Positions 2,658-20,117 of a stretch of 20,117 bases of DNA are shown one piece after another (the first letter of the stretch is position 1; each line of letters opens with the position of its first letter). This stretch comes from a virus: positions 1-20,117 of IMG/VR virus record IMGVR_UViG_3300031951_001529. The stretch is one strand, 5' to 3'. The notes beneath the pieces are model-generated. The model was given only the letters and a program-made list of their open reading frames with translations. It was not told the DNA's origin and made no database searches. The position numbers were made by a program, and so were the translations under genes.

Positions 2658-2718
2658 ATCACGGAACGTGATCCCAATGCAACACCCAACGTGTTAGACG
2701 CGCCTCACGCTTTGTGAA
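2658..2718. promoter_or_regulatory. OR-like operator: three dyads, 23 bp apart
   Basis: Three 15-bp dyads of the form NNCAC-N5-GTGNN lie between the divergent Cro-like and cI genes: ATCAC-GGAAC-GTGAT (2658-2672), AACAC-CCAAC-GTGTT (2681-2695) and CTCAC-GCTTT-GTGAA (2704-2718). The first two are perfect inverted repeats; the third has one mismatched outer pair. Centres are at 2665, 2688 and 2711, exactly 23 bp apart. The same half-site recurs at 4312-4351. By analogy with lambda OR these are CI and Cro-like binding sites covering PRM and PR; I could not place convincing -10/-35 boxes for either promoter. Confidence 0.75.
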
Positions 2719-2728
2719 GAATGTGCAT

Positions 2729-3454
2729 ATGAGCTTTGCGTCGAACCTCAAAGCGCTGCGCCAAGCCAAGGGACTGACTCAGGAACAGCTAGCACACGCC
2801 TGCGGGTGGCGCGGCCAGAGCCGCGTCGCGAACTATGAGAGCACCGGCAAAAGCGGCAGAGAGCCCAGCGAAGCGGACATTCGCGCCCTCGCTGCCGCGC
2901 TCGAAGTCACGGTCGCTGAACTGTTCGGTGAGTACCCAAGTGCAGAAGACGAATACATCTCGCGCCGACACGAGAGAAGTGTCAGAGAACGCGATGAACT
3001 CAGGGCTTATGCGGGCCTACCGCCACTCAGCCATGACTTAGTCGAAGTCCCGGTCTTCGACCTCGAGGTCGCCGCCGGCGGCGGAGCAATGAACTTCGAC
3101 ATGCCCGCCAAGGGCTCGCTGATGTTTCAGGCCTCCAGCCTTCGGAAAAAGGGCATCAGCGCCAAGACAAGCGCAGTTGGCTACGTGCGCGGCGATTCAA
3201 TGCTGCCAAGACTCCGCGACGGCGACGCCCTGCTCTTTGATCGTGCAGACACCACCGTTCGCCCTGGGAAGGTCTACGTCATCCGGAAGGGCGACGAGGC
3301 CTTCGTGAAGCGCCTATTCCCCGAAGGCCTTCGGTATCGCGTCGTCAGCGACAACAAATCCGACCCGCAATGGACCGAATGGTACGTCGACGTCCACGAC
3401 CCTGATCTTGAGATTGTCGGCCGGGTGCGCTGGGTCGCGAGCTGGGAAGACTAA
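2729..3454 (+). CDS. cI: CI-type repressor with LexA-like S24 peptidase domain
   Basis: 241 residues. An XRE/CI helix-turn-helix fills about residues 5-65 (LKALRQAKGLTQEQLAHACG), followed by a linker and a C-terminal S24 peptidase domain. The probable self-cleavage site is the Ala-Gly near residues 116-117; catalytic Ser157 is in GDSMLP and Lys194 in AFVKRLF. Such repressors keep the prophage silent and cut themselves when RecA is activated by DNA damage. I chose the ATG at 2729, with GAAG about 9 bp upstream; GTG codons at 2714 and 2723 are in frame, but the first overlaps the third operator. The likely targets are the dyads at 2658-2718 and 4312-4351. The stop overlaps the convergent gene by 4 bp. 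Confidence 0.9.
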   Translation: MSFASNLKALRQAKGLTQEQLAHACGWRGQSRVANYESTGKSGREPSEADIRALAAALEVTVAELFGEYPSAEDEYISRRHERSVRERDELRAYAGLPPLSHDLVEVPVFDLEVAAGGGAMNFDMPAKGSLMFQASSLRKKGISAKTSAVGYVRGDSMLPRLRDGDALLFDRADTTVRPGKVYVIRKGDEAFVKRLFPEGLRYRVVSDNKSDPQWTEWYVDVHDPDLEIVGRVRWVASWED

Positions 3455-5348: not shown

Positions 5349-6121
5349 GCATCGATGTCCGCGTCGACACCAGTGAGCTTCAGGGGCTGGTGAAGCAACT
5401 GCGATCTCTCAATGAGCGGGGCATCAGCTTTGCCACCGGCCGCGCCACGAACAACGTGGCGTTCAAGATCCGCGACGCCTGGAAGACGAAGGCCGCGCAG
5501 GTTTTCGACCGGCCCACGCCGTTCACCCGCAACGCCGTGCTGGTGCGCCGAGCCACCAAAGCGAACCCCATCGCGCGAGTCTTCCTGCGCGACGAAGCCG
5601 GGAACGGCATCGCGCCTCAGGTCTACCTGCAGCAGCAGGTTCTTGGTGGCGAGCGGCGCCTCAAGCGCAGCGAGGTGGCGCTGCGTTCGATGGGCTACCT
5701 GCCGCCGGGCTTCGCCGTCGTGCCTGGTAACGGCACCCGGCTCGACAGCAGCGGAAACGTTTCGGGCCGAACCATGAAGGCCATTCTTGACCAGCTAGGA
5801 AAGCGCAACACCGGCGACCGCGGAGTATTCGCCCTTCGCGCACCGCGCGGGAAGCTGCTGCCGGGCATTTATCGGCGACGCAACGAATCCTCTCGGATTG
5901 CGAAGGGGGCGGCTAAGGGCACGTGGGACAGGCAGCGATTCGTCGTGCCGCTCCTGATCTTCGTGAAGGTTCCACGCTACGCCAAGCGCTTCGAGATCTT
6001 CGACTTTGCTCGCGACGTTATGCGGCGCGAAGCCGTTCCCGAATTCCGCGCCGCACTCACCGCCGAGATCGACCGCGCCCTCGCCAAAGCCGCCCGCGCC
6101 GCGGGCAATGGAGCCGCCTGA
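5345..6121 (+). CDS. phage tail-completion/minor-tail-like protein
   Basis: 258 residues from a GTG at 5345, which overlaps the previous stop and has GGAGGG 4 bp upstream. The layout resembles phage morphogenesis proteins of about this size: an N-terminal helix (SELQGLVKQLRSLNERG), then a FATGRATNNVAFKIRDAW segment, a FDRPTPFTRNAVLV motif, and a basic central part. In other phages such proteins lie among head-tail or tail genes. Here it sits in the early operon, far from the tail genes beyond 17.8 kb, so it may be a moron or may have another role. The similarity is from memory of the family and is not certain. Confidence 0.55.
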   Translation: MSIDVRVDTSELQGLVKQLRSLNERGISFATGRATNNVAFKIRDAWKTKAAQVFDRPTPFTRNAVLVRRATKANPIARVFLRDEAGNGIAPQVYLQQQVLGGERRLKRSEVALRSMGYLPPGFAVVPGNGTRLDSSGNVSGRTMKAILDQLGKRNTGDRGVFALRAPRGKLLPGIYRRRNESSRIAKGAAKGTWDRQRFVVPLLIFVKVPRYAKRFEIFDFARDVMRREAVPEFRAALTAEIDRALAKAARAAGNGAA

Positions 6122-7610: not shown

Positions 7611-8152
7611 CCTCGGCCGCCCGCACCGCGCTGGCGCTCGATTTTTTCCGCCGGCTCGCCGAGATCGTCACCCGCCGGGGCGCGAGCCTGCGCGTCGGCT
7701 TCAAGGGCCGCTTCGCCTACCTGCAGGCGCAGTGGCCGGGCGCCGAGGAAGCGCTGAGCCTGCTGCGCGCCGAGAACTTCGAGGTGGTGCGCTACCTCAC
7801 CGAGGCCGAAGAGGCGCAGCACCCCGAAGAACCCAGCACCGAACGCGGCCGCCGCCTCAGCGCCGAACGCGCTGAGCTGGCCTTCACCGCGCTGGAAATG
7901 CGCGCCGAGATCGATGCCCTGGTCGAGGCTATGGCCTGCCGCCCGAGGCTGGCGAACGACGGCAAGCGCGCCTGGCTTTGCGTGCAGGCCCAGGGCGAGT
8001 GGATCCCGGTGCTCCGCTGCCGCAAGGGCGCCGTGCCAGAACGCTTCGACCTCGAGGCAGCGCTCAGTGCCGCACGTCCCGACACCAAAGCCATTTGCCG
8101 CCGCGAGCGGCGAACCACCCCCGCTGCACCCACCACGGAGCAAGCCGCATGA
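7607..8152 (+). CDS. hypothetical protein directly upstream of DGR target 1
   Basis: 181 residues from the ATG at 7607 (ATGA overlap with the gene before); an earlier in-frame Met at 7565 would overlap that gene too far. A small alpha/beta N-terminal part (residues 1-65) is followed by an acidic linker and a long helix (about 84-105). The C-terminal part contains AWLCVQAQGEWIPVLRCRKG and ends in a basic, Pro/Thr-rich tail. It ends in ATGA with the first DGR target. No family recognised, and no motif ties it to the DGR. Confidence 0.6.
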   Translation: MTSAARTALALDFFRRLAEIVTRRGASLRVGFKGRFAYLQAQWPGAEEALSLLRAENFEVVRYLTEAEEAQHPEEPSTERGRRLSAERAELAFTALEMRAEIDALVEAMACRPRLANDGKRAWLCVQAQGEWIPVLRCRKGAVPERFDLEAALSAARPDTKAICRRERRTTPAAPTTEQAA

Positions 8153-8691
8153 ACTCATCCACCGCGAGCGCCATCGTTGGCGCATTGCAATCAGTCACCG
8201 AGGCGCTGACCACCGGCGCCGCGCTCAGCCTTCAGCAGCCCGAAACGGCCCAGATTGACGTCACTCGCCTGAGCAGCGGCAATGATGGCGCCGTCGGCGG
8301 CCCGCGTTTCGTCGACCAGGGCGACGGCACCATCATCGACACAGTGAACCGCCTCCAGTGGTCGAAGGCCACGCTGACGCCGAAGTGCATCAGCCAGCAC
8401 GACGCGTTGAGGCTCTGCGAAGGGCTGTGCTTGGCCGCGTACGGTGACTGGCGACTGCCCACGCGAGCCGAGCTGATCACGCTGGTTGACGACAGCCGCC
8501 ATCAGCCGGCGATTAACGTCGACGCGTTCCCCGACACCAAGAGCGAATGGTACTGGACCAGCACCGTCTGCGCGTGGTCCTCGTCCCGCGCCTGGTGCGT
8601 CAATTTCTATCTCGGCGATTGCAGCTACGTCGGCCGCGGCAGCAGCTACGGCCTCGTCCGCGCGGTGCGTTCGGTGCCGGCCGGTCAGTGA
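8149..8691 (+). CDS. DGR target protein 1, DUF1566/C-type-lectin-like
   Basis: 180 residues. Residues 1-52 form an extension with no clear signal peptide. From residue 54 a DUF1566-type domain begins: FVDQGDGTIIDTVNRLQW, then DWRLPTRAELITLVDDSR (WRLPT at 101-105) and EWYWTST before the variable part. The family has the formylglycine-generating-enzyme/C-type-lectin fold used by known DGR-diversified proteins. Residues 142-179 are encoded by VR1, with the varied positions clustered in residues 147-168 and a constant GLVRAVRSVPAG end. Diversified members bind ligands through the varied surface; the ligand here is unknown. It starts in ATGA with the previous gene and precedes a shorter paralog. 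No phage structural domain is attached. Confidence 0.88.
   Translation: MNSSTASAIVGALQSVTEALTTGAALSLQQPETAQIDVTRLSSGNDGAVGGPRFVDQGDGTIIDTVNRLQWSKATLTPKCISQHDALRLCEGLCLAAYGDWRLPTRAELITLVDDSRHQPAINVDAFPDTKSEWYWTSTVCAWSSSRAWCVNFYLGDCSYVGRGSSYGLVRAVRSVPAGQ
8572..8685 (+). repeat. DGR variable repeat 1 (VR1)
   Basis: 114 bp, aligned without gaps to TR (9641-9754). All 15 differences fall on template adenines, out of 24 adenines in TR. The first 15 bp and the last 36 bp have no adenine in TR and are identical. The last block (8650-8685) is the likely initiation-of-mutagenic-homing region. The first base after the repeat differs from that after TR (C here, G in TR). The repeat ends two codons before the stop of its gene. 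Confidence 0.93.
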
Positions 8692-8719
8692 CCTTTTCCT
8701 TTTGCCCACGGAGATTCCC

Positions 8720-9124
8720 ATGAACAGCGACACCCCCCGATTCGTCGACAACGGCGATGGCACCGTCACCCTGCCCGCGCTGGGACTGATGTTCTCGAAG
8801 GCCACCATCACTGAGGTCGATGTCACCCAGCACCAGGCGGAAGACCTTTGCCGCGAGCTGCGGCTGGCTGGCCACGCCGATTGGCGCCTCCCCACCGACC
8901 ACGAGCTGCTCGCGCTCGTTGATCGCTCGCGCTACAACCCGGCCATCGACACGACGTTCTTCCCCGACACGAAGAGCGACTGGTACTGGACCAGCACGGT
9001 CTGTGCGTGGTCCTCGTCCCGCGCCTGGGGCGTCTATTTCGATTTCGGCCATTGCAGCTACGACGGCCGCGACGGCAGCCTCGGCCTCGTCCGCGCGGTG
9101 CGTTCGGTGCCGGCCGGTCAGTAA
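8720..9124 (+). CDS. DGR target protein 2, DUF1566/C-type-lectin-like
   Basis: 134 residues. A GGAG ribosome binding site lies 6 bp before the ATG at 8720, 28 bp after the first target. It is a paralog of target 1 without the 52-residue extension: FVDNGDGTVTL near the start, DWRLPTDHELLALVDRSR in the middle (WRLPT at 55-59), DWYWTST, and a VR-encoded end (residues 96-133). The two proteins also share the CAWSSSRAW approach to the varied part, so the family arose by gene duplication. Short, single-domain and without a signal peptide or tail-fibre domain, it may be displayed by an unknown partner or act in the cytoplasm. Confidence 0.88.
   Translation: MNSDTPRFVDNGDGTVTLPALGLMFSKATITEVDVTQHQAEDLCRELRLAGHADWRLPTDHELLALVDRSRYNPAIDTTFFPDTKSDWYWTSTVCAWSSSRAWGVYFDFGHCSYDGRDGSLGLVRAVRSVPAGQ
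9005..9118 (+). repeat. DGR variable repeat 2 (VR2)
   Basis: 114 bp, gap-free alignment with TR. There are 17 differences: 16 on template adenines and one T-to-G change at 9029, in the codon where TR reads TAC and VR2 GGC. The adenine-free 36-bp end (9083-9118) is identical to TR and VR1. The base after the repeat is C, as after VR1 and unlike TR. Nine adenine positions carry the same new base in VR1 and VR2. Confidence 0.93.
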
Positions 9125-9146
9125 CTCTGCCCTCTGATTGCCCCGC

Positions 9147-9587
9147 ATGTCCGCCAACCTTCCGCCTATCGTGAATCTTGCCGAGCGCCTGATGCTTGAG
9201 GTGGAGCGTGCTGTACGCGCGTTCCCGCGCTACCACAAGTACAGCCTTGGCCAAGAGCTGCGCCAGCAGTGCCGCGACTTGGTGCGCCTGTGCTATCGGG
9301 CGTGGCGGGCGAGGGACCAGCAGCACGTGCTGCTCCCCGCGCTGGTGGATGGTGTCGACGACATCAAGCTCAGCCTGCAGCTTGGCAGCCAGCTCCGCGC
9401 GTTCCGCAGCTTCGACCAGTTCGAGGCCCTGCTGCGCGTCGCGCTTGATCTTGGCCGCCAAGCTGGCGGATGGCGCAGGCAAGTCCTTTCGCACCCCAAG
9501 GGCCAGAATCCCGAGCCCGCGCCGGCCCGGGAGCGTGCCCACACACTGAGTACCCGCTCCGCCTCAACCCAAGGGGCCAACGCATGA
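9147..9587 (+). CDS. avd: DGR accessory variability determinant (Avd-like)
   Basis: 146 residues from the ATG at 9147; a TTG at 9138 is also in frame. The order and pattern (LPPIVNLAERLMLEVERAVR, then FPRYHKYSLGQELRQQC, then a long helix to LLPALVDGVDDIKLSLQLGS) match the Avd/four-helix-bundle family of DGR accessory proteins (S23-like fold). In known DGRs, Avd forms a basic pentameric barrel that binds the reverse transcriptase and template RNA and is needed for cDNA synthesis. Family members are usually about 120-130 residues; this one has a Pro/Arg-rich tail of about 30 residues. It lies between target 2 and the TR and ends in ATGA (9584-9587) with the reverse-transcriptase ORF. Confidence 0.85.
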   Translation: MSANLPPIVNLAERLMLEVERAVRAFPRYHKYSLGQELRQQCRDLVRLCYRAWRARDQQHVLLPALVDGVDDIKLSLQLGSQLRAFRSFDQFEALLRVALDLGRQAGGWRRQVLSHPKGQNPEPAPARERAHTLSTRSASTQGANA

Positions 9588-10948
9588 CGAAGCCGCGCCG
9601 CCATACAGGCCGTTCGGACGGGTCGCAAGCGAGCGGGGATGCGTGGTCCTCGTCCCACGCCTGGTACGTCAATTTCAATAACGGCAATTGCAACAACGAC
9701 AACCGCGACAACAACAACGGCCTCGTCCGCGCGGTGCGTTCGGTGCCGGCCGGTGAGTGTGAGGGTGCCGCGGCCCAGGGCGTGAACCTTCGCGCCCTGC
9801 ATGCCGCATGGAAGGAAGCGCGGCGCGGCAAGTCGCCCAGCCGTGACCAGCTCGCGTTCGATGCGCGATGGGCCGAGGGGCTGGCGGCACTCGAAAGCGA
9901 GCTGCGCAGCGGCACGTGGAGGCCGCGCCCGAGCACCTGCTTTGTCGCGACCCGCCCGAAGGCCCGCGAGATTCATGCCCCGCACTTCGCCGATCGCGTG
10001 GTTCATCACTGGCTGGTGCCCCAGCTCGAAGCCATCTGGGAGCCTCGCTTCATCCACGACAGCTACGCGAATCGCCGTGGCAAGGGCAGCCATGCGGCCG
10101 TGCAGCGCGTTGAAGGCTTCGTCCGCCAGGTAGCGAGCGGCCAGGGCGGGGGCTGGTTCCTGCAGCTCGACATCCACAACTTCTTCGTCAGCATTCACCG
10201 GGCCACCCTGTATGGCTTGCTGCGGCCGGTGACGCGCACGGCCGGCCTGCACCTCGATGCCCAGCGTGCCGCCCATGCGCTGCTCCGCGGGCCGGCACTG
10301 GCCGCCGGAGTGCACCAGGTGGGCACCGATGCGGAGCACGCCGTGGTGCCGCCCCACAAGCGGCTGGCCAATGCGTCGCCCGGCTGCGGCCTGCCGGTTG
10401 GCAACCTCAGCAGCCAGTTCTTCGCCAACGTCTACCTCGATCCGCTGGACCAGTTCATCAAGCGAACTCTGCGCGCGAAGCGCTACGTGCGCTACGTCGA
10501 CGACTTCGTGCTGGTGCACCACGACCGCAGCCAGCTCGAGGCGTGGTGGCGCGACATCGAGGCGTTCCTCGGGCGCGTGCTTAAGCTCTCGCTGAAGCCC
10601 GGCGCGATGATCCGCCCGCTCGGCGACGGCATCGATTTTCTGGGCTACGTGATCCGCCCCACGCACACCATCACGCGGCGGCGCGTTGTGGCCCACCTGC
10701 GCGAGTCGCTCGCCGCTTGGGAGGCTCAGCACGTCCGCGAGGGCGCCATCGAGTGCACGCCGCGGGAGCTCGAAGCCGTCAAGGCGAAGCTGGCCAGCTT
10801 TCGTGGCCACCTGCAGCACGCGCGGGCGCATCGCCTGCAGCAAGCCGTTGCGCGCCGATTCCCTTGGGCATTGGCACTGGACGTCCGCCGCAGGTTTCGG
10901 CCGGCACAGCTGGACCACCCCATTTCAATCCGCTGGAGGACGGCATGA
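9584..10948 (+). CDS. DGR reverse transcriptase
   Basis: 454 residues from the ATG at 9584 (ATGA overlap with avd, AAGGGG 7 bp upstream). The polymerase domain begins near residue 68. Motif A is LDIHNFF with Asp196; motif B is GLPVGNLSSQFFANVYLDPL (GNLSSQ at 273-278), the altered form typical of DGR and related reverse transcriptases; motif C is RYVDDFVLV with YVDD at 304-307; DFLGYVIRPTH follows near residue 350. It would copy the TR RNA with errors at adenines, giving cDNA that replaces VR1 or VR2. A start at the GTG at 9782 would give 388 residues, closer to usual DGR enzymes, but lacks a well-placed ribosome binding site. It ends in ATGA with the HNH gene. Confidence 0.93.
   Translation: MTKPRRHTGRSDGSQASGDAWSSSHAWYVNFNNGNCNNDNRDNNNGLVRAVRSVPAGECEGAAAQGVNLRALHAAWKEARRGKSPSRDQLAFDARWAEGLAALESELRSGTWRPRPSTCFVATRPKAREIHAPHFADRVVHHWLVPQLEAIWEPRFIHDSYANRRGKGSHAAVQRVEGFVRQVASGQGGGWFLQLDIHNFFVSIHRATLYGLLRPVTRTAGLHLDAQRAAHALLRGPALAAGVHQVGTDAEHAVVPPHKRLANASPGCGLPVGNLSSQFFANVYLDPLDQFIKRTLRAKRYVRYVDDFVLVHHDRSQLEAWWRDIEAFLGRVLKLSLKPGAMIRPLGDGIDFLGYVIRPTHTITRRRVVAHLRESLAAWEAQHVREGAIECTPRELEAVKAKLASFRGHLQHARAHRLQQAVARRFPWALALDVRRRFRPAQLDHPISIRWRTA
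9641..9754 (+). repeat. DGR template repeat (TR)
   Basis: 114 bp, the unmutated source of VR1 and VR2. All 24 adenines lie in one block (9657-9717); ten codons read AAC or AAT in the VR frame. AAY codons under adenine mutagenesis can yield up to 15 amino acids and no stop, the normal design of a template. The flanks are adenine-free (first 15 bp, last 36 bp). Unlike many DGRs the repeat is inside the reverse-transcriptase ORF and in the same frame as in the targets, covering residues 20-57 if translation starts at 9584. Confidence 0.93.
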
Positions 10949-13889: not shown

Positions 13890-15020
13890 ATGCCCCGCGC
13901 CCGCCAGCACAACCCGAGCATCCCCGCGCACATCGACCAAGCCGCCCTGCCCAAGGGCGTCTACTGGGAGCGCGGCCGCTGGTACGTGCTGGATCCGCAC
14001 CCCGAGGGCGGCAGGCCCCGCAAGCGCACCGTGGCGGGCGCTGCGGCGCGCCTGAGCGACCTGCACACCATCATCGAGCAGCGGCGAGGCGTCGACACCG
14101 GCACGCTGCGGGGCGTCTGCGCGCTGTTTCGCGAGTCGCCCGACTTCCGCCAGCTCGCGCCGAGCACCCGGAAGAGCTACGACTACTGCCGCGACGTGCT
14201 GTGCGACTTCAAGACGAAGATCGGCGCGCCGCTCGGCGATCTCGACCTTCGCCGGCTCACGCCACCCGCCCTGCAGCGCGTGGTCGACGCCATCGGCGCC
14301 GAGCACCCGCGCACCGCATCGCAGTCGCTGGGCTACATGAAGCGCGTGCTGCGCTGGGCCGTGAACCGCGGCCATGCCCAGGCAAACCCCGCCGCCAGCC
14401 TCGAGGCGCCGAAGCTGCGGCCGAAGCGCCGCCTGCCGGACCACGACGCCTACGTGGCGCTGCTGAACTTCGCCCGCGAGCGCGGCGCGCTGCAGGCGCA
14501 CACAAAGGGCTCGGTCGCGCCGTACCTGTGGGTGGCCATGGAGATCGCCTACCGCTGCCACCTGCGCGGCATCGAGGTGCTCGACCTCACCGACGCCGAC
14601 GCCACGGCGGAACACCTGGTCACGAACCGTCGCAAGGGCAGCCGGTCGACGCGGTGGGAGTGGACACCCGCGCTGCGCGCCGCCTGGGACGCCGCCATCG
14701 CCTACCGCACGGCCGTCTGGGATGCCTCGCGCCGGCCGGTACCGATGCGCGCCGAGCTGCGCCCGTTGATCGTTTCCCAGGGCGGCGAAGCGCTCCGGAA
14801 GTCCAGCTTCGACACCGCGTGGCAGCGCTTTGTGCACCTCGCCATGGCCGAGGGCGTGATCACGCCAGAGCAGCGCTTCTCGCCGCACGACCTCAAGCGC
14901 AAAGGCATCACCGAGCGCCCTGGCACTCGCGCCGACAAGCAACTCGCCAGCGGCCATCGGGCGGCCCAGATGCTCGACGTCTACGACCTCAGCGTGCCGA
15001 CGGCGAAGCCGATCGAGTAG
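13890..15020 (+). CDS. int: tyrosine-recombinase phage integrase
   Basis: 376 residues. An arm-binding-like N-terminus (residues 1-60) and a SAM-like core-binding domain (about 70-175, LAPSTRKSYDYCRDVLCDFK) precede the catalytic domain. Candidate catalytic residues are Arg226 (CHLRGIEVL), Lys249 (NRRKGSR), His333 with Lys336 where HxxR is usual (PHDLKRKGIT), His356 (ASGHR) and the nucleophile Tyr365 (DVYDL). The Lys in the second Arg position is a known variant but worth noting. It catalyses integration at attB and, with a directionality factor, excision. It is the last gene of the left-early operon, 66 bp before the tRNA-Lys att core, as in lambda. Confidence 0.92.
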   Translation: MPRARQHNPSIPAHIDQAALPKGVYWERGRWYVLDPHPEGGRPRKRTVAGAAARLSDLHTIIEQRRGVDTGTLRGVCALFRESPDFRQLAPSTRKSYDYCRDVLCDFKTKIGAPLGDLDLRRLTPPALQRVVDAIGAEHPRTASQSLGYMKRVLRWAVNRGHAQANPAASLEAPKLRPKRRLPDHDAYVALLNFARERGALQAHTKGSVAPYLWVAMEIAYRCHLRGIEVLDLTDADATAEHLVTNRRKGSRSTRWEWTPALRAAWDAAIAYRTAVWDASRRPVPMRAELRPLIVSQGGEALRKSSFDTAWQRFVHLAMAEGVITPEQRFSPHDLKRKGITERPGTRADKQLASGHRAAQMLDVYDLSVPTAKPIE

Positions 15021-16594: not shown

Positions 16595-16866
16595 CGGCGG
16601 GCCTCCAGGGCATCAAGGCGGCGATTGATCGACTCCAGCCTGGCGTCGATCTCGCGCTGCGTGGGCAGCTGGGCCAGCTGCGTGCGCACGTCCTTCACCT
16701 CGGCCTTCAGTTCGTCCATCGCGACGCGCTGCTCGATCTGCGCGTCATACATGGTCTGCAGGGTGCCCCCCACCCAAATCAGCCCCGCCGTGATGAGCGC
16801 CAATGCGATGGTCTGAAAGTGACGTTCCATGGCCCCTGCCTTTCTCCGGTTGGTTTCGTCGTTCAT
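16591..16866 (-). CDS. one-TM coiled-coil protein, holin candidate
   Basis: 91 residues. After a basic N-terminus one membrane segment (about 19-37, FQTIALALITAGLIWVGGTL) is followed by a coiled coil (ELKAEVKDVRTQLAQLPTQR and on). The ATG at 16866 overlaps the endolysin stop (ATGA-type); Met13 is an alternative start. It sits between endolysin and spanins, where holins or holin-like proteins usually lie. Single-TM coiled-coil proteins of this size occur in many lysis cassettes; function as holin is inferred. Confidence 0.6.
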   Translation of the reverse strand: MNDETNRRKAGAMERHFQTIALALITAGLIWVGGTLQTMYDAQIEQRVAMDELKAEVKDVRTQLAQLPTQREIDARLESINRRLDALEARR

Positions 16867-17831
16867 GCCCCTGCCCTCGCCGCCTGCGCCTCAGCGCGCC
16901 GCCGGGCACATAGCCCGGGCCCGTTCTTGGTGTCGTTCGCCCAGACGCTGCAGCTCGCCTGAAGCTGGCGGGCCGTGCACTCGGCGTCGCCGGCGGGCAG
17001 GCACACGTCGCGGATCTCGCGCCGATGCACGCGGCGGCTGCCGGCCATGGCCTCGCCGCGGTTGTAAGTCTCGGAAGTCAGCGCGCACTGCACGCCCGGC
17101 GGAGCGGCGTCGAAGTGGCGGCCGTAGGCGCGCCGAGCAGCTGCTCGGTACCGGGGAATGCTGCTGGCCTCCAGCACGTCGACGGCCATGGCCCAGGGCA
17201 CCACGATGTCGCGATAGCGCGGCAACGCAGCCCGGGCCGGCTCGCCGATCACCCCGGCCGTCGTCGAGAGGCGCGGCGCGGCGGCGTGCGCCGACCACTC
17301 GCGCAGGATCGTCGGCGCCGACTGGTGGCCGCCGTCGTACCCCACGCCCCAAGTGATGCCGCTCGCCCCACCCGGCCAGATCGGCGACTGGTACCGCCGC
17401 ACGTAGGCCTGCTGGCTGGTGATCTCCCACCGCACCAGCAAGTCGCGCGTGCACTGCGTGGCCGGCGTGGTAGCGCCCGCGAAGCTGCTGAAGGCGAAGT
17501 ACAGCACCCCGAACATCACCAGCCATTCGAGGCGATCCTTCACGATCACCCACAGCGCGTTCTTGTTGCCGTTCGCGGCGCGCTCGTGCAGGTCTTTCTC
17601 GGCCTCGGCGTCGAGGTCGTACCAGTACTCCGCTTTGAATCGCCACGCGAGGTAGCCCAGCAGCGCGACCGGCAGCAGGCCCACCAGGTAGTCGGTGAGG
17701 ATGGGCCCCACCTCGAGCGCCGGCTGGCCGCGATACCAGGTGAAAGCCCACGCCGCGGCGAGCAGCACCAGCAGCGCGGGGACGATGGCCGACACCTCGA
17801 TGTGGCGGCGGAGGAAGGTGAGAAGGCGCAT
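16863..17831 (-). CDS. membrane-anchored GH24-like endolysin
   Basis: 322 residues from the ATG at 17831; a GTG at 17837 is also possible. Three membrane segments lie at about residues 12-33, 43-64 and 102-119. The lysozyme-like domain begins near 130: WEITSQQAYVRRYQSPIWPG, then GITWGVGYDGGH, which fits the GH24 (T4-lysozyme type) active site, with Glu136 the candidate catalytic acid. It would cut peptidoglycan at lysis. Anchored endolysins usually have one signal-arrest segment; three segments suggest a fusion with a membrane protein, or that holin-like and lysin functions are joined. It is followed by a holin candidate and spanins. Confidence 0.72.
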   Translation of the reverse strand: MRLLTFLRRHIEVSAIVPALLVLLAAAWAFTWYRGQPALEVGPILTDYLVGLLPVALLGYLAWRFKAEYWYDLDAEAEKDLHERAANGNKNALWVIVKDRLEWLVMFGVLYFAFSSFAGATTPATQCTRDLLVRWEITSQQAYVRRYQSPIWPGGASGITWGVGYDGGHQSAPTILREWSAHAAAPRLSTTAGVIGEPARAALPRYRDIVVPWAMAVDVLEASSIPRYRAAARRAYGRHFDAAPPGVQCALTSETYNRGEAMAGSRRVHRREIRDVCLPAGDAECTARQLQASCSVWANDTKNGPGLCARRRAEAQAARAGA

Positions 17832-17868
17832 GGTCACAAGTCCGTAAGCGGCGAAGTCGGAGAGCTAT

Positions 17869-18348
17869 TCAAGGACGCGTAAAGACACGCGTTTCGCCAG
17901 CGGAAGACCACGTTTGACCGGCGACGCTCCAAAGCGTTGTCCAAGCCGCGTTGTCGCTGCTGTATTGAATCTCGAAATCTCGAGGGTATTGACCTAACAG
18001 GCCATCCGACCTTCCCGTGTACGCAACTTCCGCGACGGACACCGGCGATCCGAAATCATAGGAAAGCCAAGCGGGAACGCCTGTTCCACTGGCGCCGCTC
18101 CAGATCGTCGAAGGGTTGCCATCGAACGCGAAAGACGGGACGAGCGAGCCGAAAACGGAGCTAGCCGCGGCTGTTCCCCCGGTTGCGATACTCGGCCCTC
18201 CAGGCACACTTCTGAACTGGAGTTCAGCGCACGAATGGGCGCTTCCGCCGCCGTCAAGCTGCGTCACGAAGAATCGCCAATAGCGTGCAGAAACACCGCC
18301 GCCGCCCGAAGCGCCGAGGCTCATCATCCCTTGCGTGAGCGCGAGCAT
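17869..18348 (-). CDS. discoidin (F5/8 type C)-like tail-associated protein
   Basis: 159 residues from the ATG at 18348, which overlaps the previous stop (TAATG). After a Gly-rich N-terminus, a discoidin-like domain covers most of the protein: ARYWRFFVTQLDGGGSAHSC, PSFAFDGNPSTIWSG, LSYDFGSPVSVAEVAYTGR and DFEIQYSSDNAAWTTLW are typical strands. Such jelly-roll domains bind carbohydrates. Placed after the tail-tip genes, it is a likely host-surface-binding or tail-fibre-end protein. It is 38 bp before the endolysin. Confidence 0.75.
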   Translation of the reverse strand: MLALTQGMMSLGASGGGGVSARYWRFFVTQLDGGGSAHSCAELQFRSVPGGPSIATGGTAAASSVFGSLVPSFAFDGNPSTIWSGASGTGVPAWLSYDFGSPVSVAEVAYTGRSDGLLGQYPRDFEIQYSSDNAAWTTLWSVAGQTWSSAGETRVFTRP

Positions 18349-19016
18349 TACGCGGCCACCCCGCGCATGGTGTATTCCCAGCGCGCGCCCTGGTCGAACG
18401 TGGTGATGGTCAGCAGCGTCCACGCGTTGCTCGCGGTCTGGATCGCGGTGTCGCTGCCTGCCGTGGCGCGGAAGCTGGTGGGCAGCGCGAACGTGCGGCC
18501 GCCTGTCGCGTCCTGACGGATCCGGATGGCCAGCGACACCGCGCGTCCAGTCGCAGGCAGGTTGGTGAACGTGAGGGCCGTGACGTTGCCCGTCAGGTTC
18601 AGGGTGAAGAAATCGCCGAGCGAACAGTCGACGTTTACCGATCCCGAAGTGCTCAGCGCCGTGACGGCATCACGCGCAGCCGCGCCACCGCCGCCAGTCA
18701 CCACCACCCAAGCCGAACCGTCGAAGCGGCGCACCTCGGTGCCCACCTGCTTCAACCAGCCGAAGAACGGGGCGAAGCGATACCAAGTGCCGGAGCGCCA
18801 CAGAACCACGTCGTTCTGCGCGAAGGTCGACCACGCGCCGGTCGGCGTCGCGCCGAGGATGTGAACCTGGCCATCGGCGGGCGAGGCGGGCGGCGTGCTG
18901 AGGATGCTCGTCGCCCCGCGAGCCAGCACCTCGGTGCGCAGAAAGCTGTCGTTGACGGGCGTGCTGGGCTGGGTCGTGCCCTGAATCCAGACGGGCAGCG
19001 GGAACATGGCGCTCAA
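18348..19016 (-). CDS. DUF2793-like tail protein
   Basis: 222 residues from a TTG at 19016 (GAGG 8 bp upstream, overlapping the previous stop); an ATG at 19007 is three codons later. The first 100 residues (ILSTPPASPADGQVHILGAT, then PTGAWSTFAQNDVVLW, GTWYRFAPFFGWLKQVG) match DUF2793, seen in GTA and siphovirus tail modules. The second half is a beta-rich domain (SVNVDCSLGDFFTLNLTGNV, then TALTFTNLPATG) as in fibre tips. It is probably part of the distal tail, downstream of the tail-tip protein. Confidence 0.75.
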   Translation of the reverse strand: MSAMFPLPVWIQGTTQPSTPVNDSFLRTEVLARGATSILSTPPASPADGQVHILGATPTGAWSTFAQNDVVLWRSGTWYRFAPFFGWLKQVGTEVRRFDGSAWVVVTGGGGAAARDAVTALSTSGSVNVDCSLGDFFTLNLTGNVTALTFTNLPATGRAVSLAIRIRQDATGGRTFALPTSFRATAGSDTAIQTASNAWTLLTITTFDQGARWEYTMRGVAA

Positions 19017-20117
19017 GGGACGATCCTCGTGGCAGGGTCACCCAAGCCCGCGAGCCGGTTGCGGCCGCGGACGGTGACGGTGATGGGGTTGGCCAAGCCG
19101 GCCACGTCGATGGCGACCGAAGGCGTGATCACGGTGGCCGTGCGGGTGGTGCCCCCGCTGGTGGCGTCCACCTGCCAGCCGTCGAAGTGGCTCGATGCCA
19201 CCGGGGTCTCTTCGCTGCCGAAGCGGTGGCGCGGCGTCCAAGTCACAGCGAGGCTGTCGCCGGTACGCACCGCGCTCTCGATGATGGGCGGCCACTCACG
19301 CTGGCTGCGGGCCGTCCAGGCGCGGGCCTGCGCCGCGGCCGTGGTGGGGTCGTTGCCGATGCTGTAGGCGCGGTGGCTGAGCGTGGCGCCGATGCGCTCG
19401 CTGCCGGTCTGCACCACCAAGGCGCCATCCAGCAGCACGAACACTGTGCCGGCCGCATGGGCGCTGGCGCCGGAGTTGAGCCGGCCGCGCTGCAGGCCTG
19501 TGAGCCGCCACGTGCCGGGCGTGGTTTCGACGGCCTCGCGGAACTGAACCACCTCGGCCGTGCCGTCGGCGCGCACCAGTGCGGCGGCATTGCCGCGGCT
19601 CAGCCACTGCTCGCGGCTGATGGCTTCCAGCTCGTCATCGGCCCGGGCGAGCTGCACCACGATGGCGTTCGATTCGTCGGGGTAGAACTCGCTGGCCAGC
19701 GGCAGCGTCGCCGTGAGCGTGCCCATGACGGCGCCGGTGCCATCCGTGGCGATCAGGCCGAACGTGCCGCCAATGTCCGCGCGCTCGATGGCCGCGCCGC
19801 GCCATGCCGGCACCTCGCCGCTGGTCGCCAGGTGGTAGCTCAGGACGTCGCCGGCCTGCGTCAGCGCCGGGATGTCGAGGAACGCGAAGCGCGTGGCGCC
19901 CACGATGGTGGAAGGCGGATTGGTGACCGGCGCCGTCGGGATGGGCTGCACCTCGGCGGTGTAGGCGCTCTGCCGATCGCGCTGGCAGGTGAGGCGCTGC
20001 CAGCCGTCCATCACCTCGACCTTCTTGATGCGGCAGCGCTGCGAGCGGCCGCGGTACTGCACCACCGGCACATCGGCAGCCACCAACCCAATCAGACGGT
20101 CGCTCACGCCGAAGACC
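19013..20117 (-). CDS. tail-tip/host-specificity protein, C-terminal part
   Basis: The frame is open to the window edge; a GTG at 20107 is in frame but probably internal, since tail-tip proteins are far longer. The visible 368 residues resemble the C-terminal part of GTA/siphovirus tail hub proteins (rcc01698-like): the segment FAFLDIPALTQAGDVLSYHL, the LARADDELEAISREQWLSRG part, the short LTGLQRGRLNSGASAHAAG motif, RTGDSLAVTWTPRH and a fibronectin-like end with VAIDVAGLANPITVTVRGRN. It forms the baseplate hub or central fibre base that contacts the host and leads the late operon seen here. Confidence 0.75.
   Translation of the reverse strand, partial: VFGVSDRLIGLVAADVPVVQYRGRSQRCRIKKVEVMDGWQRLTCQRDRQSAYTAEVQPIPTAPVTNPPSTIVGATRFAFLDIPALTQAGDVLSYHLATSGEVPAWRGAAIERADIGGTFGLIATDGTGAVMGTLTATLPLASEFYPDESNAIVVQLARADDELEAISREQWLSRGNAAALVRADGTAEVVQFREAVETTPGTWRLTGLQRGRLNSGASAHAAGTVFVLLDGALVVQTGSERIGATLSHRAYSIGNDPTTAAAQARAWTARSQREWPPIIESAVRTGDSLAVTWTPRHRFGSEETPVASSHFDGWQVDATSGGTTRTATVITPSVAIDVAGLANPITVTVRGRNRLAGLGDPATRIVP

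Follow-up and report, generated by a model that had tools for sequence, protein, structure and literature searches.

The window analysed here, a 20,117-nucleotide stretch that is an IMG/VR virus record, carries a cassette which is almost certainly an intact diversity-generating retroelement (DGR) of the Bordetella BPP-1 type, found in a temperate phage of lambda-like type. By DGR standards it is a textbook case, one more complete and well-formed example. The gain is comparative: across a supported clade of temperate-phage reverse transcriptases (RTs), the early operon is where the cassette and its two or three small lectin targets are retained, and in natural relatives strong conservation of the TR goes together with hypervariability of the VRs. 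The original prediction had claimed that every part needed for mutagenic retrohoming is present and intact, and all components were confirmed at the level of sequence (Table 1); the open reading frames of target 1, target 2, Avd and RT are intact in all four cases.

Table 1. Position of the cassette components and neighbouring genes in the window
Feature	Position	Strand	Description
CI-like repressor	2714-3454	+	PHROG 4 transcriptional repressor, 6e-46; Peptidase_S24; upstream border of the putative early-left operon
Minor-tail-like gene	5351-6121	+	PHROG 1924, 3.5e-60; within the early region
Target gene 1, 180 aa	8149-8691	+	N-terminal extension of ~60 residues and Lcl_C (DUF1566) C-type-lectin domain bearing VR1
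VR1	8572-8685	+	15 mismatches to TR, 15/15 on A
Target gene 2, 134 aa	8720-9124	+	Bare Lcl_C domain bearing VR2
VR2	9005-9118	+	17 mismatches to TR, 16/17 on A
avd, 146 aa	9147-9587	+	Predicted four-helix bundle; PHROG 3206 and fold
TR 5' flank	9544-9640	+	End of avd, conserved block ACTGAGTACC at 9545, ATGA overlap 9584-9587
TR	9641-9754	+	114 bp, 24 adenines; G9755 next (IMH* side)
DGR RT, 388 aa from GTG 9782	9782-10948	+	Motifs GLPVGNLSSQ and YVDD
Tyrosine integrase	13890-15020	+	PHROG 1 integrase, 2.2e-25; Phage_int_M; downstream border of the putative operon
Tail region	17869-20107	-	Tail tip like the C-terminus of the GTA 'megatron', then DUF2793 fibre-like protein and discoidin-like virion protein

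One TR and two VRs with adenine-specific differences had been predicted, and independent comparison confirmed them, the coordinates and figures (114 bp, 15 and 17 differences, 31 of the 32 on the 24 TR adenines) proving exact on recount. The TR aligns without gaps to each VR over the full 114 bp, the lone non-adenine mismatch is a T>G of VR2 at TR position 9665, and the adenine bias has a hypergeometric probability of 6e-13 for VR1 and 9e-13 for VR2. Between VR1 and VR2 there are 10 differences over 115 positions, nine of them at TR adenines, and upstream of the VR the two target genes share only 64% identity. Past the 3' end, the first mismatch sets G9755 of the TR against C8686 of VR1 and C9119 of VR2, and this G/C difference was found again across the whole family, with a 3' boundary of CAG in the VR and GAG in the TR in 97 of 97 comparable VRs. 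By its signature, this boundary is a candidate for the IMH/IMH* mark that would restrict homing to one direction; a hairpin 3' of VR1 and VR2 is weak and not alike between the two sites. Ten of the TR adenines fall at codon position 1, 14 at position 2 and none at position 3, so that adenine mutagenesis can create no stop codon. Up to 14 residues per target can be changed through the 24 adenines, and the number of reachable protein variants, computed from the codon positions, is ~1.5e14.

HMM search, PDB sequence search and phylogeny agree that the RT is of the DGR type, as had been predicted. It matches PHROG 1423 (4e-100), and its closest solved sequence is the DGR RT of PDB 8ub7 (1.4e-34, versus 5e-13 for group II RTs). 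The RT phylogeny had been named as able to overturn the prediction; in our tree of 41 rows, a division supported at 100/99 sets DGR RTs apart from those of group II introns, with the RT of the window on the DGR side. In addition, it bears YVDD and the DGR-type SQ motif (GNLSSQ), where group II enzymes have SP. Identity as a group II intron RT or maturase was rejected, given a TIGR04416 score of 99 bits (cut-off 300) and a position outside the group II clade of the tree. The RT frame is already open at an in-frame ATG at 9584, which overlaps the avd stop, and for this reason the start codon of the RT is uncertain.

An HMM search had also been proposed for the Avd-like gene and, once run, identified it as PHROG 3206 'Avd protein of DGR' (1.8e-19), in agreement with its predicted fold; scores against NCBIfam DivGenRetAVD (4e-11) and Pfam bAvd were both under the curated cut-offs. 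Comparison with PDB sequences gave no match, and the relation was picked up instead by fold comparison, in which TMt values of 0.76-0.88 were obtained for the AF2 model against Avd of Bordetella (4dwl) and the Avd chains in 8ub7. An accessory avd gene is thus recognised by both HMM and fold. The targets, described earlier as DUF1566/C-type-lectin-like, were assigned to Pfam Lcl_C/DUF1566 (9.7e-28 for target 1 and 2.1e-26 for target 2), and the lectin fold was recovered from the AF2 model of target 1 (pLDDT 83.4), whose best PDB match in a fold search was the C-terminal domain of Legionella Lcl (8q4e, E 2.9e-5), followed by other C-type-lectin folds. As judged by Lcl_C and the 8q4e fold, the gene that carries the VR at its 3' end is a C-type-lectin target. 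A tblastn search with target 2 against the phage collection returned no matches at 1e-5.

The window is part of a lambda-like temperate phage. Cro-like genes are opposed to the CI repressor, and the tail-tip and fibre genes lie on the minus strand at 18-20 kb; searches of the window for tRNA and Rfam matches returned none. A 29,769-base contig of the same collection holds the entire window with one mismatch in 20,117, at position 5769 and outside the cassette, and in its left extension are putative primase, terminase and portal genes, the order and similarity of which are shared with phage G002. The cassette is encoded on the plus strand between the CI repressor and the integrase, away from the tail genes, a placement among early genes that dozens of related viruses share; neither target is thus encoded in a tail module as in the Mtd type, and no VR was found in the tail-tip, DUF2793 fibre-like and discoidin-like genes. 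The original prediction had overlooked this early/integration position. The region corresponds to an early-left operon and, by its gene order, would be read as a single transcript. The G002 homologue of the minor-tail-like gene is on the terminase/tail strand, beside a homologue of window ORF 16863-17837.

The BPP-1 DGR (mtd-avd-TR-brt) shares with the window the order target-avd-TR-RT, adenine-specific VR differences, a C-type-lectin target, the Avd fold and the RT family; its single target, however, is a 381-aa tail protein encoded beside the tail genes, whereas the window has two small Lcl_C targets in an early operon. Also related are the DGRs of Magia (Burkholderia), Haboob, LPPA56, Cruim01, SC_8 (Pseudomonas) and QDWS (Shewanella), the RTs of which fall with that of the window in a 100/99 clade. 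Like the window, they carry in the early region a pair of small lectin-like targets together with Avd, TR and RT, and Magia, LPPA56 and QDWS likewise have an integrase after the DGR, although RT identity to the window is about 40% and the target sequences are different. The gene order is RecT, AAA ATPase, lectin target, second target, Avd, RT, HNH and integrase in Magia; CI, targets, Avd, RT and Bet in Haboob; and RT followed by integrase in LPPA56 and QDWS, with a similar cassette position in Solimonas and in locus L036. Tail-linked DGRs (BPP-1, ACA1, ARM81mr, Lagaffe and YPCBV-1) stand elsewhere in the RT tree than the window clade. The Magia annotation already carries a 'potential DGR target', and the DGR of SC_8 is without annotation in its record.

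DUF1566 targets and multi-target DGRs, like the DGR machine itself, are already known (PMC6642488, PMC10743442). DGRs with DUF1566 targets occur in Proteobacteria and related bacteria. That of Stenotrophomonas sp. SKA14 has six VRs (PMC6642488), and it resembles the window, as do those of Desulfobulbaceae (L011) and Desulfobacteraceae (L012), in its Lcl_C/DUF1566 targets, the possibility of multiple targets and a related RT; the bacterial L011 and L012 targets start with a signal-peptide-like sequence, unlike the window targets. In the gut phage DGRs nd4 and nd12 (tentaclins), one TR serves two C-type-lectin targets (PMC10743442), which are mutually unrelated, one having Ig domains, whereas those of the window are tandem paralogues. 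The genomic setting of the cassette, in an early operon, is little described. In the part of the literature covered, we found no account of an early-operon class of phage DGR, which is a weak sign of novelty.

The early/integration location bears on what the targets may do. The usual account of phage DGRs is a tail-fibre tropism switch, and we give an even chance to its equivalent here, namely that the targets are virion receptor-binding proteins like Mtd of BPP-1, small tail-mounted lectins that switch host receptors. The early-operon position would then be an accident of phage mosaicism, an explanation strained by the window, Magia, Haboob, LPPA56, Cruim01, QDWS, Solimonas and several IMG/VR loci, in which the cassette has repressor, recombination and integrase genes for neighbours and lies apart from the tail genes. 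In addition, tail-linked DGR targets have long structural domains at the N-terminus, which the present targets lack. Yet viral DGR targets of the main clades are mostly annotated tail proteins, the remainder being of unknown role (PMC8144416), virion proteins need no signal peptide, and the minor-tail-like gene on the same strand and in the same region warns against dismissing a virion role.

Somewhat on the improbable side, in our judgement, is the alternative that the targets are early, non-virion proteins, made soon after infection or induction, which bind variable host or competitor molecules in the cell. It would account for the early-left operon position being kept across the 100/99 RT clade and for the third VR target of locus L084, which lies beside the repressor and ahead of RecT/RecE. 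Nearly all targets in the family are without a hydrophobic N-terminus (one exception by hydropathy, a crude signal test), and often they consist of no more than a lectin domain, about 141 aa long; both features speak for this alternative. The same minor-tail-like gene weighs against an early, non-virion role, as does the fact that, to our knowledge, those DGR lectin targets whose ligands are known work extracellularly. The wider proposal that a widespread temperate-phage DGR clade diversifies small early proteins and not tail fibres, with one to three hypervariable, signal-less lectins expressed from the early-left operon and working within the infected cell (directed, for example, at host defences that vary or at competitors), is tentative, and we consider it rather unlikely. 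The clade allows a direct test for such other diversified functions by means of the cultured phages Magia, Haboob and LPPA56.

Whichever the role, the cassette in the window phage is very probably active, to judge from its sequence and that of its relatives. By analogy with BPP-1, mutagenic retrohoming would proceed through an RT-Avd complex that reverse-transcribes TR RNA and misincorporates at template adenines; the mutated cDNA would replace the 3'-terminal VR of either Lcl_C/DUF1566 gene, and replacement would stop at the conserved GC-rich 3' segment, GAG in the TR and CAG in the VR. The targets would be hypervariable ligand-binding proteins. Phage G002, with an RT 69% identical to that of the window, has its own TR and three VRs. 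At the 16 columns where the window and G002 TRs differ and both are non-A, 79 of 80 VR bases agree with their own TR, an agreement that shows co-evolution of the VRs with their TR and that we read as the mark of homing having recurred in both lineages.

A target-alignment scan revealed 71 viral loci, most with two tandem targets, Avd, TR and RT. Whether VR differences among relatives are biased to template adenines had been named as another point on which the original prediction could fail; among 105 unique VRs in 49 loci, 1,524 of 1,546 mismatches (98.6%) fall on a TR adenine, in alignments for which non-adenine mismatches were penalised in the choice of segment. Comparison of contig pairs is independent of that penalty, and here 0-6 differences were counted over the roughly 170 sites of the TR regions and mostly 8-20 over the 96 of the VRs; in the pair L100/L113, for example, differences number 2/429 in avd, 0/171 in the TR, and 11/96 and 14/96 in the VRs. 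Since the TR is almost invariant and the VRs are 10-20% different between near relatives, the family appears to be active in nature. Further VR targets were observed 2-6 kb upstream of the RT (n=16 in 15 loci, the duplicate locus L035 being excluded: L079, L084, L085, L088, L090, L093, L094, L102, L107, L108, L110, L122, L125, L127 and L137), such that a single TR supplies two or three genes lying apart. Among the 26 loci with enough sequence, at least 13 have an integrase downstream of the RT, a lower bound given that the profile used to detect it was made from seven sequences.

It is very improbable that the cassette was once active and is now a frozen relic in the window phage. No variants of this phage were seen, the only second copy (the 29,769-base contig) being identical across the cassette, and the relatives include a seemingly detached target; against this, the open reading frames, the catalytic motifs and the TR/VR 3' boundary are all intact, a single non-adenine mismatch is present across two VRs, and the relatives appear to be active. 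The detached target is a lone target 2 homologue (87% identity over 382 bp) at 14279-14692 on the minus strand of L039 (IMGVR_UViG_3300025080_000002), a phage contig that is unrelated elsewhere and gave no match to the RT. In this homologue, other sequence has taken the place of the 3' boundary (it ends ...PAIDKARKA) and 6 of the 20 differences from the window TR are on T, so that it resembles a target severed from its DGR. That VR1, VR2 and TR, near copies as they are, might be tandem duplicates homogenised by gene conversion with the RT a bystander has a negligible probability, as gene conversion alone does not yield mismatches confined to TR adenines and the genes are merely 64% alike outside the VR.

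The surroundings of the TR are conserved as well. The TR-flanking sequences 9544-9587 and 9751-9766 (ACTGAGT block, ATGACGA and GTGAGT) are near-invariant among six phages that have diverged in avd and RT, and they are likely, from this pattern, to be a functional part of the DGR RNA. In six of six close relatives, the RT frame is open through the TR, with ATGA over the avd stop. A fused TR-RT product was considered and rejected, as openness of the RT frame is no evidence of translation: of 32 DGRs, 23 have a TR open in that frame, versus 19 and 18 for the other two. The ATGA overlap within the clade is the sole part of this frame pattern that stands. In BPP-1, priming requires an RNA region 3' of the TR. 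The spacing from TR to RT domain is about 25 nt in the window and its clade, versus about 200 nt in BPP-1, so that any BPP-1-like 3' priming region would have to overlap the RT gene.
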